This document shows positions 14,706 to 22,131 of a stretch of DNA of 64,000 nucleotides, piece by piece. Source of the stretch: Candidatus Bathyarchaeota archaeon (GTDB taxonomy: Archaea; Thermoproteota; Bathyarchaeia; Bathyarchaeales; Bathycorpusculaceae); contig JAOZIE010000008.1 in the NCBI GenBank assembly GCA_026014485.1, forward strand, positions 1 through 64,000. The letters are read 5' to 3'. The stretch's first letter is position 1; the number at the start of each line of letters is the position of its first letter. The notes below the pieces were generated by a model. The model was given only the letters and a program-made list of their open reading frames with translations. It made no database searches and had not been told where the DNA came from. A program made the position numbers and the translations under genes.

Positions 14706-15770
14706 ATGAGTGACTCATATTTCCAAAAGAAGCTTGAACCCATCAAAGTCAAGCCGAAAACCGTCAACGAGCTCCTCACGGAGATGGCGAAAACCGCCTA
14801 TCAAGGACGCAAACTCGGCGAAGCCGTTGACATCTGGGAAAAGATGGTTAAAGACCCGAACCTCACCATAGTGATGGGGTACGCAGGCAGCATGGGCACC
14901 GCTGGGCAATGGACTATCGTGAACTGGCTTATCGAAAACCGCTTCATAGACGTCCTTGTCAGTACAGGTGCAAACGTTTCTGAGGACATAGTGGATGCCA
15001 TGGGCTTCGGCTACTGGCAAGGCAGCCACATGGTAAACGACCAAGAGCTCCTCGAAGCAGACGTGAACCGCTACTACGACGTATTCGGCAAAGAGACTGA
15101 CTATCGCAAAATGGAGGAACTCGTCACCGACTTTGTCATGACGCTGAAACCCGACTACCACTACAGCAGCGCAGAATTCTTCTACCTGCTCGGCAAGTTC
15201 TTGAGCGAGAAAAACATCCCCGCCATAGCCGCCAAAGCCTACGAAAACGGCGTGCCCATCTTCAGCCCAGCGTTTCTAGACAGTGCATACGGCGAAACCA
15301 TCCTCATGGCGAAAAACCAAGGTCACCCCATCGTCGTTGACTCCGCCAAGGAATTTGAGCAGTTCGTAACCATAGGCACCAAAACCAAGGACGTTGCTGT
15401 GGTCTACATCGGCGGCGGCGTTCCCAAAGACCTCACCCAACTCATAGCCATCTCAGTTTCACCTATGACCAAAGACCAAGGCGTAGAAGGCAGAAAAGGC
15501 GGCCTGCGCAAAAGCCTACAGGAATACTACTACCCCCACAAATACGCCATACAAATCACCACCGACGCTCCACAGTGGGGCGGCTTAAGCGGCTGCACGC
15601 TGGAGGAAGCCATAAGCTGGGGCAAAATAAACAACGAAGACAACACCCGCGCCGTCTGCTACAGCGACGCCACCATCGCCCTACCGTTAGTGACTCACGC
15701 GCTGTGCGAACGCGTCCAAACCAAACGGAAAGGACCAGACTTTAGCTGGCTGTTCAAAGGCGTCCAATAA
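14706..15770 (+). CDS. Deoxyhypusine synthase family protein, paralogue 1
   Basis: The 354-residue protein of the deoxyhypusine synthase family transfers the aminobutyl group of spermidine, via NAD, to a lysine of archaeal aIF5A. The family's reactive-lysine motif is present as SWGK, with K307, and the NAD-binding features GSMGTAGQW and VSTGANVSED are seen. It differs clearly from the second paralogue at 16463-17419 and is longer. It could be the true enzyme, a divergent one using another polyamine (some relatives make homospermidine), or part of a pair. The SD AAAGGTG precedes the ATG, and a TATA-like TTCAAATATT lies near 14658. Confidence 0.85.
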   Translation: MSDSYFQKKLEPIKVKPKTVNELLTEMAKTAYQGRKLGEAVDIWEKMVKDPNLTIVMGYAGSMGTAGQWTIVNWLIENRFIDVLVSTGANVSEDIVDAMGFGYWQGSHMVNDQELLEADVNRYYDVFGKETDYRKMEELVTDFVMTLKPDYHYSSAEFFYLLGKFLSEKNIPAIAAKAYENGVPIFSPAFLDSAYGETILMAKNQGHPIVVDSAKEFEQFVTIGTKTKDVAVVYIGGGVPKDLTQLIAISVSPMTKDQGVEGRKGGLRKSLQEYYYPHKYAIQITTDAPQWGGLSGCTLEEAISWGKINNEDNTRAVCYSDATIALPLVTHALCERVQTKRKGPDFSWLFKGVQ

Positions 15771-16462: not shown

Positions 16463-17419
16463 TTATTTTTTGCCCAACCGACTCAACAGTGCACTTGTCA
16501 TTACCGGCAGCACAATCGTGGCGTCGCCCTCCACCATGATGTGTTTGGCTTTTTCGCTGATTTTTCCCCATGAAACTGCTTCTCGGGGTCTTGCGCCGCT
16601 GAGGCTTCCATCCCATTCTTCGGCTGTGCTAATGTAAACAACGTAGTCTAAGCCATCTTTGAATTGGTTCCACCAGATGGTGTGGTGTTTGCTGATTCCG
16701 CCGCCGACGATGAGTGCCCCTGACTTTGGGGCGTCGAAAATGATGTTGCTTAGGTCACCTTCGTCTTTGAGCAGGTTAATTTTGAAGTCTTTGTGGTCTT
16801 GGCTGAAGAACCACAGTTGATAGCCCACTGCACCATCGGTTATGCCTGGAACAAAGACGGGTATGTTGTTTTTGGCTGCCCAATAAAGAATTGAGCTCTC
16901 ATCACAGCAGCGTAAGCCGATTTCGCGGTTAAGCTCGCTGGTGGAAAGCTCTCTTTTGCCTTCTTTGTAGAGGTCTTGGAGCATCTGCTGGATTTTTTGT
17001 TCGATGATTATGCCGTAGCTGTCGTTTGGGACAAGCACGTTGCCCAGACGGTTGACGCTTTGGTGGTGCAGTTTGGAGTCGTTCATCATGAAGCTGCCTT
17101 TGTAGTAGTCTTTCCAGCAACGTGCCACGTCATGGTCCAATGTGCCGCAGGTTGTGATTAATATGTCGACGAGTTTACGTTTAACGAGTTCTTTGATTAC
17201 GCCTCGGGTGCCCGTTGCCACTATGTCGGCGGTGAACGAGAAAAACTTGACGCAGCCCTTTGAGTTAATCATGTCCTCCATGATGCTGACGCCCGTGGCA
17301 AGCTTGCCCGCGGTGAAACCCCACGCATTATCCATCTGGTCTACAAGCTCAGCAACCGACATGTTTTCTGTGAGCTGATAATCTTTAACGGGGATTTTAT
17401 GCGTTTTTTCTTTGGGCAT
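16463..17419 (-). CDS. dys: Deoxyhypusine synthase, paralogue 2
   Basis: The 318-residue product is the paralogue closer to the canonical enzyme. It has the family segment SGARPREAVSWGKISE with the reactive lysine at K286, followed by DATIVLPVMTSAL as in eukaryotic and archaeal deoxyhypusine synthases. The NAD-site region TGTRGVIKELVKRKLVDILITT is split over about residues 69-95. It would modify aIF5A with spermidine. The length matches the archaeal family. It is transcribed away from the RLAN/ATP-grasp genes, and the other paralogue lies about 700 bp away on the opposite strand. Confidence 0.88.
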   Translation of the reverse strand: MPKEKTHKIPVKDYQLTENMSVAELVDQMDNAWGFTAGKLATGVSIMEDMINSKGCVKFFSFTADIVATGTRGVIKELVKRKLVDILITTCGTLDHDVARCWKDYYKGSFMMNDSKLHHQSVNRLGNVLVPNDSYGIIIEQKIQQMLQDLYKEGKRELSTSELNREIGLRCCDESSILYWAAKNNIPVFVPGITDGAVGYQLWFFSQDHKDFKINLLKDEGDLSNIIFDAPKSGALIVGGGISKHHTIWWNQFKDGLDYVVYISTAEEWDGSLSGARPREAVSWGKISEKAKHIMVEGDATIVLPVMTSALLSRLGKK

Positions 17420-17499: not shown

Positions 17500-18378
17500 C
17501 TACGCCGATAAATAGCTGATTATCCTTGCGTATATGTCCTTATCTTTTTGGTCTTCGTATCCCGCGTAGATGCTTGGGTTATCGTTGATTTCCACCACCA
17601 CAAAGTCGCCGTCAACCTCTTTGAGGTCTACCCCATAGAGCCCCTTGCCGACTACGCTGCAAGCCTTCAAAGCAACTTCCCGCAGCCGACTCGGAACCGT
17701 TTCCCGCTTTAACGCGACGGTTCTGCCCCACGTGAAGGTGGCTTTGCCTCTGAGTTTTGCGCCATGTTTCCATTTGCCCTTCGGAATCATGTATTTACAG
17801 GCATACAAAATGTCGTTGTTGAGCACGCCGATTCTCCAGTCAAAGGCTGTAGGCGTGAACTTCTGCACTGCCAAAACGTCACTTTTTTTGAAGAACCGTT
17901 TAGCTACCTCACGGAAGCTGGATTCGCAGGCGGTTTTTTCCACGTATTTGCTAAAGCTTGTGTATGGCGCTTTGAGGACGACTGGTTTGCCTAGCTGTTC
18001 GAAGATGCCCTTGATTTTTTTGTGGTGCAGTTCATCTTTGTTCAGAAATATGGTGGGTATGCGTGGCACGTTGTACTTTTCTAGGAGCGCGTACTGGTGG
18101 ATTTTGTTGCCGCAGATGGTTATCGATTCGGGGTCGTCGATGACTTTTAAGCCGAGTTCCCAAGCCGTTTTGGAAACAACGTATGCCGCGTTGAGGGGGT
18201 CAGTTGTTGCTCTGATGAAGACCGCGTCAAACTTGGGTATGTCGGAGATGTCTTCGCGGAAGAGGAATTGGAATTCCTGCCCTAACTTTTCTGCAGCTTG
18301 TTTGAAGTTCTGCAGCGCTGCTTGCTCGGTAGGGTCAGAGAAATTGTATTTTTCAACAAAACAGGCGATTTTGGACAA
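17500..18378 (-). CDS. RimK-like ATP-grasp ligase
   Basis: The 292-residue ATP-grasp enzyme is related to RimK (glutamate ligase). The N-terminal pre-ATP-grasp region is followed by the ATP-grasp core with the lysine motifs KPVVLKAPYT and GKGLYGVDLKEVDGDFVVVEIN. The metal-binding NDNPS is near the C-terminus. Such enzymes form amide bonds between a carboxylate, activated as acyl phosphate, and an amine, often adding Glu. The TTG start overlaps the end of the upstream RLAN gene by 26 bp and has GGAGA upstream, so the two are translationally coupled. In many bacteria RLAN and ATP-grasp are one polypeptide, so this looks like a split form. Confidence 0.82.
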   Translation of the reverse strand: MSKIACFVEKYNFSDPTEQAALQNFKQAAEKLGQEFQFLFREDISDIPKFDAVFIRATTDPLNAAYVVSKTAWELGLKVIDDPESITICGNKIHQYALLEKYNVPRIPTIFLNKDELHHKKIKGIFEQLGKPVVLKAPYTSFSKYVEKTACESSFREVAKRFFKKSDVLAVQKFTPTAFDWRIGVLNNDILYACKYMIPKGKWKHGAKLRGKATFTWGRTVALKRETVPSRLREVALKACSVVGKGLYGVDLKEVDGDFVVVEINDNPSIYAGYEDQKDKDIYARIISYLSA

Positions 18379-19066
18379 CTAATGTGTCTCCTTGCTCAGA
18401 AAAGAGCATAACCTCTTTAGAAATCGTTTTGAGGTCTTGGTCTGTTAGTTCTTGTTTGTTTATGGGTTCCAGTCCACATAGGAAGGCTTCATCGGGTGTT
18501 TTCTGGATATGCAGTTTGCATACTGGTATGTTGAATGCTTCGTAGAGTTTTCTGCTGATATTCTGTGACGCTATGTCTTGGCTTTCGCATTTGCCAAAGA
18601 AGCTTTTGAACGTGACCATTTCGCCTTTGAGGGGTTGGGCACAGACAGCGAATTTGTAGTTCATGCCTAAGCTTTTCATGGCGCGGTATAGGGCGCTCTT
18701 GTTGTGTGCGGTTTTGAAGCCTTCGTAGATGAAGGGGTTTACGGCGAAAAGCACTGCTGGGAAGCCCATTTCGGTTGCGATTTTCTTCACCGAGTCCGTA
18801 ACCAAGAAGGGCAGGGTTGGTATTCCTGCTCTGGCGGCTCTGAGAAGCAAAACTGGGGTTCTGCTGGAGTCAATTATGTTTTCGCAGGAGGGAATCACTT
18901 TATTGCCTAAAACTTCGGCGTGTAGAGAAACGTAGTAGCCTGTTTTCAGGTAGCGGTATTCATTGTTGATGTTTAGTGTTGCTTCCTTAATTGTGGAACC
19001 TAAAAACGTTGAGGGTTTCACTACACTCGAATCTATTGTTAGGTCGAGATTAGAGACGACCAGCAC
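18353..19066 (-). CDS. RLAN-domain protein (N-terminal partner of RimK-like ligase)
   Basis: The 237-residue protein matches what I know of the RimK-like ATP-grasp N-terminal (RLAN) domain: a conserved YRYLKTGYYVSLHAEVLGNKVIP stretch, split here over about residues 37-59, with VIPSCENI after it. There is no ATP-grasp core. The gene precedes and overlaps the ATP-grasp gene, so the two products probably form one enzyme. It starts with GTG at 19066; the ATG four bases earlier is out of frame. An inverted repeat between the TATA box and the start suggests repression at the promoter. Confidence 0.72.
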   Translation of the reverse strand: MLVVSNLDLTIDSSVVKPSTFLGSTIKEATLNINNEYRYLKTGYYVSLHAEVLGNKVIPSCENIIDSSRTPVLLLRAARAGIPTLPFLVTDSVKKIATEMGFPAVLFAVNPFIYEGFKTAHNKSALYRAMKSLGMNYKFAVCAQPLKGEMVTFKSFFGKCESQDIASQNISRKLYEAFNIPVCKLHIQKTPDEAFLCGLEPINKQELTDQDLKTISKEVMLFSEQGDTLVVQNRLFC

Positions 19067-19072
19067 TCATGT

Positions 19073-19120
19073 GACACCAGGTAACCAATTGATTGGTGTC
19101 AACGTGGTCATATTTAAAAT
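19073..19120 (-). promoter_or_regulatory. Promoter and operator-like inverted repeats before the RLAN gene
   Basis: On the minus strand a TATA element (TTTTAAATATG, 19110-19120) is followed by two nested inverted repeats: GACACCA (19073-19079) with TGGTGTC (19094-19100), and ACCAAT-TG-ATTGGT (19084-19097). They lie between the TATA box and the GTG start, where a bound protein would block transcription. The Lrp-type protein at 21586 is a candidate binder. Confidence 0.5.
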
Positions 19121-19774
19121 TAACTGAACGCTGGTCAGCTTCAGGGGGTTCTGCTTCGCAATTCTTATTTGCCCCCTCTAAAGAGTGGACCTCTGATTTG
19201 TGGGTGTACGCTTTACTTTGTTTCTTTACTGTTACCCACAAACTGTTGCTGACTTGATGATGCCGCAAACCCTTAAAAGCAAAATCCATCCCAGAATTAT
19301 TTGGGTGCGTTCTGCAATCAAGAAAGATAGTGCATCTGCGGTTGTTCAGTTCACCGATTATGTCCAAGTCTACGAACCTGCCCTTTCGCATGAGGATATT
19401 ATGTGCATCGCGGAAGAGTTCGTTAGAGCACACCCCAAAGAAATCCTGCTTTTTGGATCCATGACGAAATCTCCAGATGAGTTCTCTAAAAAACCCGTTA
19501 ACAGGCAACACTGAATCGGCTTAAGCAGAACTTGTTTAGTTAACAGTAGCATGCTCCAGAAACCAACATGACTCTAACTAACGAGTAATTGAAACCGGTT
19601 GCAGTTCAAATAGCAAAATCATTTTCATCATCTTTGGATTGGTTATCTGGCAGATTAAGCGGGTTTTGTCTGCGTTTTCCTGAATAGACAAGTTTAAAAT
19701 CATCTCTTCATATACACGCTTCTTGGCAAATCAGTCAAGCAGAGAGGAAACTTACGTATAAAACGCTTGAAGTC
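19101..19774. other. Long intergenic region between the divergent ligase genes
   Basis: Almost 700 bp separate the RLAN gene from the GCS2 gene. Apart from the promoter and inverted repeats at its left end and a TATA-like GTTTAAAATC at 19691-19700, it holds one possible small ORF (19257-19514). No RNA gene is seen. Confidence 0.4.
19257..19514 (+). CDS. Possible small hypothetical protein
   Basis: An 85-residue frame from the double ATG at 19257 reads as plausible protein (IIWVRSAIKKDSASAVVQF, then PALSHEDIMCIAEEFVRAHP with amphipathic helices). No family is recognised, no strong SD is seen, and an antisense frame overlaps it. It may be a remnant or a real small gene of the ligase cluster. 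Confidence 0.3.
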   Translation: MMPQTLKSKIHPRIIWVRSAIKKDSASAVVQFTDYVQVYEPALSHEDIMCIAEEFVRAHPKEILLFGSMTKSPDEFSKKPVNRQH

Positions 19775-20944
19775 TTGGGTCCCGAGCATGAATTCTCCTT
19801 AGTGGACGATGCGCTCAAGCCGTTGCCCATCGCAGACCAGGTCATAAAGGGTTACTGTGGAAAAATCATGAACTTCGTGGAGTTGCCTGGCTTCACTTTC
19901 GGCAAGGAAATGCAGTTGCACGTTATGGAGTTGAAGGCGAACGCGCCGTTTCAGGGTCCACGGGTTTTTGAGGAAACCATGCAGAAAGGGGTGACGACGC
20001 TTGCAGCGTTCCTTAAACAAAGGTATGGCGCGCATCTGCTTGGGGCGGGCATGCATCCTCTGCTGAAGCTTGATGAAACAGGCATCTGGACTCACCGCCA
20101 CAGCAAAATCTACCGCGAATACGGCAAAATCTTCAATCTCCAGCAGCATGGGTGGCTTAACATCCAAAGTTTCCACCTGAACCTGCCATACCAAAAAGAA
20201 GCTGACGGCGTTCTTCTGCATAACCTGCTAGCCAACATGTGCCCTTACTTGCCCGCGGTTTCAGCGTCCTCCCCCATATATGAAGGTGCCCTGCATGGAA
20301 AAGTGGATAACCGTTTGGCTTTCTACAAGGCTAACCAGCAGGAGGTGCCCTCCATTTCAGGAGATGTTGTGCCTGAGTACATTTCATCTTTTGACATGTA
20401 CCGCAAAGACGTTATTGGACGGTACTCCCGAGATTTGGCTGCGGCGGGTGCTTCGGAAACGATTCTGTTTAAGGAATGGGTGAACTCGCGTGGGGTAATC
20501 TTCCGTTTTGACAGGTCAGCCCTTGAAGTGCGTATGATGGATGAGCAGGAATGCGTGAAATCTGATGTTGCCTTAAGCTGTTTTGTTCGGGCTGCCCTAC
20601 GCGGATTAATTTCTGGCGCCCCTGAGCTTCTGCCCCATAACCTGCTTGTCTGCGACTTTAATGCGGTTCTTGACAAGGGACTAGACGCAGAAGTGCAGAA
20701 TCCTTATGGTCCAACTGCTCGGCACGTTTGTCAACACCTGTTTGATGTGGCTTGGCAAAACGCAACGGACGAGGAAAAAAATTATTTGCCTCTGGTTAAG
20801 CGTAGACTTGAGGAAGGCAACTTGTCCGATGTCATCAGGCAGAAAGTTCTGAAGAGGGCGCAGCGCACCGATTTGACGGAGGCAATAACAGATGTTTATT
20901 CAACGCTTATTAAGTGCCTTGAAGCTAACAAACCTTACTTCTAA
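19775..20944 (+). CDS. GCS2-family carboxylate-amine ligase (glutamate-cysteine ligase-like)
   Basis: The 389-residue protein of the GCS2/YbdK glutamine-synthetase-fold family is predicted to ligate the carboxylate of Glu or a similar compound to an amine using ATP. The N-terminus has the metal/ATP motif GPEHEFSLVDD and further on MELKANAPFQGP; HTHxH-like residues (WTHRHSKIYREYG) and ALEVRMMDEQE near the C-terminus also fit. The first possible start in frame is TTG at 19775, yet protein-like sequence continues upstream (TYKTLEV) after the SD GAGAGG at 19742. The true start may be a non-standard codon near 19754. The divergent RLAN/ATP-grasp pair supports a shared ligase pathway. Confidence 0.78.
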   Translation: MGPEHEFSLVDDALKPLPIADQVIKGYCGKIMNFVELPGFTFGKEMQLHVMELKANAPFQGPRVFEETMQKGVTTLAAFLKQRYGAHLLGAGMHPLLKLDETGIWTHRHSKIYREYGKIFNLQQHGWLNIQSFHLNLPYQKEADGVLLHNLLANMCPYLPAVSASSPIYEGALHGKVDNRLAFYKANQQEVPSISGDVVPEYISSFDMYRKDVIGRYSRDLAAAGASETILFKEWVNSRGVIFRFDRSALEVRMMDEQECVKSDVALSCFVRAALRGLISGAPELLPHNLLVCDFNAVLDKGLDAEVQNPYGPTARHVCQHLFDVAWQNATDEEKNYLPLVKRRLEEGNLSDVIRQKVLKRAQRTDLTEAITDVYSTLIKCLEANKPYF

Positions 20945-20964
20945 AAACCACAAGAGGCAACCAG

Positions 20965-21513
20965 ATGTCAGAAGACAAAAAAGGCAAAACATACTCGTTT
21001 GACGTTTGCTCCCAGTGCAAATTTACCTGTTGCCAAGATGCTAATCCGCCTTTGACGCTTAACCGACAGAAGATTATACGTAGCTACTTAAGGGAACAAA
21101 AAATCCCCATACAAACCCCCTTTGCAGGTAAAGACTATGTTCATCCCGCCTCAGACTCCGACGGCATCTGTGTATTCTACAACAAGGAAACCCAAAAATG
21201 CGTGGTGCACCCCGTTAAGCCTGAAACCTGCAAAGCTGGACCCGTAACGTTTGACATAAATCTGAAAACGCGCAAAGTGGAGTTTTACCTAAAGAAGGGC
21301 GAAATATGTGGCTTCGCACAGTTTCTTTATGATAATCCTGCGTCTCTTAGGAAACATTTAGAACCCGCGAAGGCAGAGATTATGCAGTTGATTTGCGAGC
21401 TTGACGCTGAGGCTTTGGGCGCAATCCTTAGGATTCCTGAACCTCAAACTTTCAGGATTGCTGAGAATAATTTGCCAAAAGAAGTTATGCAGAAACTTGG
21501 AATAGATGAGTAG
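20965..21513 (+). CDS. YkgJ-type Cys-cluster protein
   Basis: The 182-residue protein has the cysteine arrangement of the YkgJ (CxxCx-CC, zinc- or iron-chelating) family. N-terminal CSQCKFTCCQDA is followed by a central CVFYNKETQKCVVHPVKPETC and a later C (GEICGF). Family members bind metal and are often found with peptide or amide-forming and radical enzymes, but their activity is not settled. It lies 20 bp after the GCS2 gene with its own SD (AGAGG), so it is probably co-transcribed and part of the ligase cluster. Confidence 0.75.
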   Translation: MSEDKKGKTYSFDVCSQCKFTCCQDANPPLTLNRQKIIRSYLREQKIPIQTPFAGKDYVHPASDSDGICVFYNKETQKCVVHPVKPETCKAGPVTFDINLKTRKVEFYLKKGEICGFAQFLYDNPASLRKHLEPAKAEIMQLICELDAEALGAILRIPEPQTFRIAENNLPKEVMQKLGIDE

Positions 21514-21585
21514 CCTAAAGCCTTTTCTGCATCAAGTTAATTAATGTCAAGGTGAAAGTTAAATTATCCAATTGGGGGTAAATTA

Positions 21586-22131
21586 GTGGTCTTAAAAGAA
21601 ATAGAAAAGAAAATGCTTTCTGAACTGATTAAGAATTCAAGAAGAAGCGATAGAGAACTAGCCAAAGCAATCGGTGCTTCACAGCCTACCGCAACAAGAA
21701 TCAGAACTAAACTTGAAAGAGAAGGCTACGTGAAAGAGTACACCACCATTCCCAACTTCAACAAAATGGGCTATGCCATACTAGCCTTGACTTTCATGAA
21801 GCTGGACGTAAAACATGCTATGCCTCCTCAAGACCTTGAACAATTTAGACGCATTCACTATGATGCGGTTTCTAAAACTCCAAGTACGGTGATGTTTGTT
21901 AAACGTGGAATGGGCTTAGGCTATGACGCTGTAATTATCTCTCTGCATCAAGACTACGCTTGCTGTGACCGATTCCGAACCTTCATACGCCAACATATGA
22001 CTGAAAGAGTTTCCGCCATCGACACGTTCCTAGTTAATCTTGAGGAGGAAGAAAACAGCTTACCCTTCAGCTTCAGCTTGTTAGCAACTCAGATGATGGC
22101 AATTAACTGCAAAGACAAACAGCAGGCATAA
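21586..22131 (+). CDS. Lrp/AsnC-type HTH regulator
   Basis: The 181-residue protein has an N-terminal Lrp-type helix-turn-helix (EKKMLSELIKNSRRSDRELAKAIGASQPTA, shown here only in part, about residues 6-55). A C-terminal region of beta/alpha character may be a ligand-binding RAM-like domain, though the match is weak. It starts with GTG, with GGGGGT upstream. It follows the GCS2 and YkgJ genes on the same strand after 72 bp, with a TATA-like GTTAAATTATCC of its own. It is the natural candidate regulator of the amide-ligase cluster. Confidence 0.78.
   Translation: MVLKEIEKKMLSELIKNSRRSDRELAKAIGASQPTATRIRTKLEREGYVKEYTTIPNFNKMGYAILALTFMKLDVKHAMPPQDLEQFRRIHYDAVSKTPSTVMFVKRGMGLGYDAVIISLHQDYACCDRFRTFIRQHMTERVSAIDTFLVNLEEEENSLPFSFSLLATQMMAINCKDKQQA

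Follow-up and report, generated by a model that had tools for sequence, protein, structure and literature searches.

The ligase locus and its conservation

We analysed positions 1 to 64,000 of contig JAOZIE010000008.1 (assembly GCA_026014485.1, Candidatus Bathyarchaeota archaeon; this whole stretch of 64,000 nt is termed the window) and focus here on a divergent cluster of genes for predicted amide ligases at positions 17,500 to 22,131. One of these genes, encoding a GCS2-type carboxylate-amine ligase, very probably starts with the codon ACG. The host genome (G000, Bathyarchaeia) has a size of 2.37 Mb and is 96.5% complete. A preliminary description, made from the sequence alone, had placed five genes at this locus, and all five were confirmed by open reading frame (ORF) listing, translation, and Pfam assignment (Table 1). 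The genes for RLAN and for a RimK-like ATP-grasp ligase are found on the reverse strand, with a 26 nt overlap between the RLAN gene and the start of the ATP-grasp gene. The genes for GCS2, a YkgJ-type Cys-cluster protein, and an Lrp-type regulator are found on the forward strand. The cluster is flanked by two deoxyhypusine synthases on one side and by SCP2 and the F420 ligase CofE on the other.

Table 1. Features of the ligase locus and its neighbourhood. Positions refer to the window.
Feature	Positions	Strand	Remarks
RimK-like ATP-grasp ligase	17500..18378	-	start TTG at 18376-18378; PF08443, E=1e-7; translationally coupled to RLAN
Stand-alone RLAN	18353..19066	-	start GTG at 19064-19066; PF14401, E=1.2e-21
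GCS2 (YbdK-like) carboxylate-amine ligase	19754..20944	+	PF04107, E=1.3e-31
Predicted ACG initiation codon of GCS2	19754..19756	+	ACG in 41/45 distinct homologues
Shine-Dalgarno sequence GAGG of GCS2	19744..19747	+	6 nt 5' of ACG
YkgJ-type Cys-cluster protein	20965..21513	+	PF03692, E=4.6e-9; ordinary ATG start
Lrp-type helix-turn-helix regulator	21586..22131	+	adjoins YkgJ only in few related genera (g1, g3, g21)
Shine-Dalgarno sequence CTGGTG of RLAN	19075..19080	-	8 nt 5' of GTG; near-invariant in 43 homologues
TATA-like element CATATTTAAAATTAACT	19109..19125		kept in the intergenic regions of relatives that were inspected
Inverted repeat TGACACCA..TGGTGTCA	19072..19101		between TATA-like element and RLAN start; not conserved
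Canonical deoxyhypusine synthase	16463..17419	-	NCBIfam PRK01221, 453 bits; neighbour, outside the core module
Second deoxyhypusine synthase paralogue	14706..15770	+	NCBIfam PRK00805, 440 bits; neighbour

Four of the genes (RLAN, ATP-grasp, GCS2, and YkgJ) form a real and conserved module. Among the 163 genomes of the order, RLAN is encoded in 46 and GCS2 in 44, with both being present in 42. Of the four genomes with RLAN only, two contain just fragments (G046, G054) and two carry RLAN at or near a contig end (G033, G139). The two genomes with GCS2 only (G015, G024; family f4) have no close relative of the ATP-grasp protein, the best candidates showing about 30% sequence identity. The commonest gene order, found across genera, has GCS2 and YkgJ on one strand, diverging from RLAN and ATP-grasp on the other, and this layout also occurs in G578, a genome from another class of the phylum. 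Only two of 228 Asgard genomes carry the module, and in both of them the genes form one collinear run in the order RLAN, ATP-grasp, GCS2, YkgJ. YkgJ was found beside GCS2 in 30 neighbourhood loci. The RLAN/ATP-grasp and GCS2/YkgJ pairs co-occur even where they are separated, by 84 kb in G147 and on different contigs in G034 and G035.

The preliminary description would have been given up had the neighbours not been conserved in relatives; they are kept across Bathyarchaeia, in G578, and in the two Asgard genomes. It had also predicted that the archaeal version is split, and RLAN and the ATP-grasp protein are indeed encoded by separate ORFs in every archaeal locus examined. The Lrp regulator, which it had counted as part of the cluster, is confined to a few genera and was rejected as a constant component. 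The RLAN fragments (G046:C16:42049 and G054:C381:1999) are located near the deoxyhypusine synthase paralogue and represent decayed copies of the module. The Asgard RLAN proteins (L123:830-1130, L124:7779-7990) have an acidic N-terminal extension with Ser/Asp repeats (GDSSSGDEEGSDSDSDSD).

ACG as the predicted start codon of GCS2 and of HflX

The first ATG, GTG, or TTG in the GCS2 frame of the window is the TTG at 19775, from which the gene had originally been read. This codon is located within the conserved motif TYKxLEVLGPEHEF, and a start at this position would cut into the conserved LEVLGPEHEF; the start was therefore reassigned to the ACG at 19754. When the frame is read from stop to stop, ACG is the first codon of the motif in nearly all relatives, namely in 40 of 44 distinct GCS2 genes (the count in Table 1 includes G578, where the residues after the start have diverged (TRWSLKALGPEHEF) and ACG is retained). 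It is also retained in GCS2 copies which have relocated away from RLAN (L135-L141, L151) and in both Asgard copies, which have an in-frame TGA three codons upstream. The four exceptions are two genes from one genus, which read ATG ACN CCN TAC, and two genes from family f4: L162 has ATG TAC, with ATG at the exact position of the ACG, and L163 has AAG at this position with an ATG upstream. On the tree, two mutually independent departures from ACG suffice, one of which has ATG at the same position. A GAGG is found 6-10 nt 5' of the ACG in 35 of 40 homologues.

This conservation stands apart from general codon usage. Of all threonine codons, about 20% are ACG. Where another threonine column is conserved in 80% or more of the genes, all four codons are used, the commonest accounting for 35-46%. 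At fourfold sites the third base is identical in 31% of the pairs, which is near random and corresponds to saturation. A single C to T change, a common mutation, would turn ACG into ATG; as ACG is nevertheless kept from Bathyarchaeia to Asgards, it must be under selection. In a reconstruction of 61,358 ancestral AUG starts, switches to GUG, UUG, CUG, and AUU were reported, and none to ACG (Belinky et al., PMC5622118). ACG starts were not described for archaea in the literature searched, which took in few of the subscription journals.

Further genes of this kind were sought by comparing four Bathyarchaeia genomes over 310-400 kb each. This gave 333 families of two or more members, of which 188-191 were represented in at least three genomes. 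On inspection, nearly all flagged pairs without a usual start could be read as shadow frames or as chance conservation ahead of a normal start. Only GCS2 and HflX were left unexplained, and ACG starts as a general habit of these genomes were thus rejected. A stricter test on 188 families returned HflX alone; GCS2 was missed probably because one of its sequences has a weak Shine-Dalgarno sequence. HflX, a ribosome-rescue GTPase, is encoded outside the window (G000:C23:75976-77247, reverse strand; TIGR03156, 299 bits vs. a cut-off of 216.75) and is present in 147 of the 163 genomes. We compared 49 HflX genes from many families of the order. ACG is found in 45 and GTG at the same place in one, while the remaining three have other codons at this position, with ATA as the likely start. 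No ATG, GTG, or TTG occurs between the upstream stop and the ACG in 43 of the 45, a stop codon immediately precedes the ACG in three genes, and a GGAGG is located upstream of the start. GCS2 and HflX thus both show a conserved non-NTG start at Shine-Dalgarno spacing, the sequence feature of near-cognate start genes of the infC type.

That the ACG might instead be an internal threonine codon, with translation beginning upstream, downstream, or via a frameshift, we consider extremely improbable. In 11 of 40 homologues an in-frame NTG does occur within 60 nt upstream and before any stop. In 20 of 40, however, there is an in-frame stop within 20 codons upstream of the ACG without an intervening ATG, GTG, or TTG, and in 26 of 40 codons 2-20 are free of NTG. 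Many homologues also lack any out-of-frame start which could feed a frameshift, and an internal codon should vary as the other threonine columns do. A frameshift or an upstream start was rejected on these grounds. Editing of C to U in the mRNA, by which ACG would become AUG with normal initiation thereafter, is also very improbable. A genomic ACG opposite an ATG in one relative is what is classically expected of an edited start, and the chloroplast genes rpl2, psbL, and ndhD likewise have a genomic ACG, which is edited to AUG (PMC9845219). Such editing, however, leaves unexplained the HflX start which is GTG in one relative and apparently ATA in others, and these two codons argue against any need for conversion to AUG. 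In addition, the sequences flanking the ACG have no motif common to GCS2 and HflX, and C-to-U editing of archaeal mRNA was not encountered in the literature searched.

With both alternatives weighed, we are highly confident in ACG as the predicted initiation codon of GCS2, and its occurrence in a second, independent gene makes direct initiation at ACG the simplest reading. A dedicated initiator tRNA was considered and rejected: the 44 tRNA matches include a Met(CAU) initiator and no initiator-like tRNA with anticodon CGU, the tRNA-Thr(CGU) is ordinary, and so is the tRNA set. On the same contig as the window, ARAGORN called a selenocysteine tRNA with anticodon TCA (L223:225-308, corresponding to G000:C23:130724-130806).

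Proteins, leaders, and related systems

RLAN is a clear member of PF14401 (77.4 bits, gathering score 25) and has columns that are invariant across its homologues. Its structural model, with a predicted local distance difference test (pLDDT) score of mostly 81-96 over residues 70-220, matches the ATP-grasp ligases ArgX, LysX, Ddl, and RimK (Foldseek E about 1e-7, template modelling score about 0.5). In this one model the C-terminal part looks like a degenerate ATP-grasp partner without catalytic residues, and RLAN and the ATP-grasp protein may form a pseudo-heterodimer of two ATP-grasp proteins. The ATP-grasp protein scores above the PF08443 cut-off and belongs to the superfamily, with K136, D251, E263, and N265 invariant in 20 homologues. 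It falls short of the RimK family of alpha-L-glutamate ligases (TIGR00768; 73.2 bits, cut-off 143.4). GCS2 belongs to PF04107 (110.5 bits) and retains the GxExE-type catalytic acids of that family. Its AlphaFold model (pLDDT 83) matches YbdK (1r8g, and 1tt4 with a Foldseek E of 6e-11) and the plant glutamate-cysteine ligase 2gwc, while its score against the YbdK family TIGR02050 is 40.2 bits at a cut-off of 176.4. YkgJ shows an invariant Cys/His pattern in 15 homologues. With these features, the module could in principle make two amide bonds.

The start codons of the two reverse-strand genes are also rarely ATG. For RLAN, GTG was found in 37, TTG in six, and ATG in none of 43 homologues; for the ATP-grasp gene, TTG was found in 24, GTG in 15, and ATG in two of 41. 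YkgJ mostly starts with ATG, and the genome-wide share of ATG is about 61-66% according to two rough counts. We regard the near-absence of ATG from the starts of these two genes as suggestive only. This trait, the ACG start, and the degenerate ATP-grasp fold of RLAN are absent from the preliminary description. Upstream of RLAN, the TATA-like element and the Shine-Dalgarno sequence are both conserved. The inverted repeat, for which a regulatory role had been suggested, is present in the window but absent from those relatives whose intergenic regions were inspected, and was dismissed as a regulatory signal. An out-of-frame ATG, 4 nt 5' of the RLAN GTG (19066-19070, reverse strand), opens a short overlapping frame (in the window MSAGRL, then stop), and such a frame also occurs in many homologues; it is lost in several genera and was thus rejected as a general device.

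In bacteria, RLAN and RimK-like ATP-grasp domains (PF14401 and PF08443) follow each other in the same order, with 37-39% sequence identity to the archaeal ATP-grasp protein. The preliminary description had stated that they are usually fused in bacteria: in the bacterium checked (L128) they form one protein of 550 aa, whereas they are always split in archaea. Judging from the ORFs, the bacterial gene is accompanied by a GNAT/C39-peptidase gene and a desuccinylase-like gene, without a GCS2 or YkgJ match beside it, whereas the archaeal pair travels with GCS2 and YkgJ. Archaeal GCS2 has the fold and the GxExE-type acids of YbdK and glutamate-cysteine ligase, but scores below the cut-offs, has a different motif on the amine side, and has the conserved ACG start. 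A RimK-like ATP-grasp enzyme is shared with the RimK/RimBK system for glutamylation of S6 and with the Pseudomonas rlo operon, but among the archaeal neighbours we noticed neither a RimB/RloA-type peptidase nor a transglutaminase-like RloB, and the RimK cut-off is missed.

A deoxyhypusine synthase gene is located 3' of ATP-grasp in many, although not all, relatives. The paralogue DHSa is encoded in 94 of the 163 genomes and is a core gene of the taxonomic family in genomes with or without RLAN, for which reason deoxyhypusine synthase was not accepted as a module member. Genera without this neighbour (L060, L061, L062, and relatives) have a conserved set of genes 3' of ATP-grasp, among them those for a flavorubredoxin-like protein and several small redox-looking proteins. 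In G024 (L163, family f4), a gene for a pyruvoyl-dependent arginine decarboxylase precedes GCS2 on its strand; a FemAB-like protein is also encoded on this strand, and a deoxyhypusine synthase-like gene is found nearby, divergent from the GCS2 strand. The module has a gene of this kind beside it in both Asgard genomes as well. The decarboxylase, together with the recurrence of deoxyhypusine synthase-like neighbours outside the family (Asgards, G024), hints at a polyamine.

A proposed two-ligase pathway with a restrained GCS2 step

The module probably joins glutamate to a partner, for which a polyamine is the best hint that the gene neighbourhoods offer. GCS2 would activate a carboxylate, most likely the gamma-carboxyl group of glutamate, and couple it to an amine. 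A second amide bond would be made by the RimK-like ATP-grasp enzyme, aided by RLAN as a degenerate ATP-grasp partner in the form of a separate, translationally coupled subunit, and YkgJ would act in the same pathway as a Cys-cluster metal protein. The glutamyl-type product proposed by the preliminary description is reasonable but unproven. With respect to expression, the ACG behind its Shine-Dalgarno sequence would be a near-cognate codon which initiator tRNA decodes directly, so that GCS2 would be kept scarce or its output tied to start-codon stringency. From the sequences we infer direct decoding, limited or regulated expression, and the order of the two ligases. To the reading as a whole, a glutamyl-amide pathway of two ligases in which a near-cognate start, kept by selection, throttles or regulates the GCS2 step, we assign a probability of about 0.62.

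Several observations weigh against this reading. The genus g19 has a complete module with an ATG-start GCS2, and the module can thus do without ACG. As these genomes often use starts other than ATG, the GTG and TTG codons of RLAN and ATP-grasp carry less weight as an argument. Because DHSa is a core gene irrespective of the module, its adjacency in Bathyarchaeia may be plain synteny. As GCS2 and the ATP-grasp protein fall below the NCBIfam cut-offs for YbdK and RimK, the substrates of those families cannot be transferred to them.

Other functions for the same genes were considered. In a glutathione-like thiol pathway, GCS2 would make gamma-glutamylcysteine, the ATP-grasp enzyme would add a third residue, and ACG would do nothing beyond setting a low constant level. 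GshA and GshB are a pair comparable to GCS2 and ATP-grasp, and the fold matches described above agree with this proposal. Its GCS2, however, is far from gshA-related models (40 bits vs. a cut-off of 176), and the position of the His-rich motif, usually HxHV, reads HGWLNIQ, which makes such a pathway rather doubtful. We also consider it unlikely that, instead of producing a free small molecule, the module acts on the translation apparatus by modifying a ribosomal protein, aIF5A, or some other factor, and that its ACG, GTG, and TTG starts provide a stringency feedback comparable to the AUU of infC. RimK does glutamylate a ribosomal protein (PMC12239564), the recurrent neighbour deoxyhypusine synthase modifies aIF5A, ATG is nearly absent from the RLAN and ATP-grasp starts, and the sole other ACG-start gene found is that for HflX. 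Yet the known substrates of GCS2 enzymes are small, the neighbourhood encodes no target protein, and the deoxyhypusine synthase is not specific to the module.

Alongside the glutamyl-amide pathway, a less probable reading is that Bathyarchaeia, together with other archaea carrying these genes, keep a small set of ACG-start genes, so far HflX and GCS2. Their output would follow start-codon stringency, the set would thereby sense the ribosome's state or act back on it, and the module would be part of this circuit. HflX as the only other ACG gene fits such a link, although this is not proof. Bacterial infC, which encodes IF3, likewise has an evolutionarily conserved near-cognate start with a Shine-Dalgarno sequence and, according to work cited in PMC9845219, uses its AUU start to depend on initiation stringency. 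Here the codon is ACG, the organisms are archaea, and the products are GCS2 and HflX, for which autoregulation of the infC type is at present an analogy. Sulfolobus aIF1 biases initiation away from non-canonical start codons (PMC6237735).

There are practical consequences for annotation. Gene finders allow ATG, GTG, and TTG, and genes with an ACG start are thus cut short or missed: a mechanical gene call shortens GCS2 at its N-terminus and, in the Asgard genomes, also removes the catalytic motif. With two ACG-start genes at hand, simple reporters could directly test how archaea choose their start codons. One of the two encodes a ribosome-rescue factor, which is reminiscent of the AUU start of bacterial IF3. 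The module would represent an uncharacterised pathway of two ligases common to several phyla, and the conservation of its ACG start suggests a deliberate, previously undescribed brake or switch on archaeal protein synthesis.

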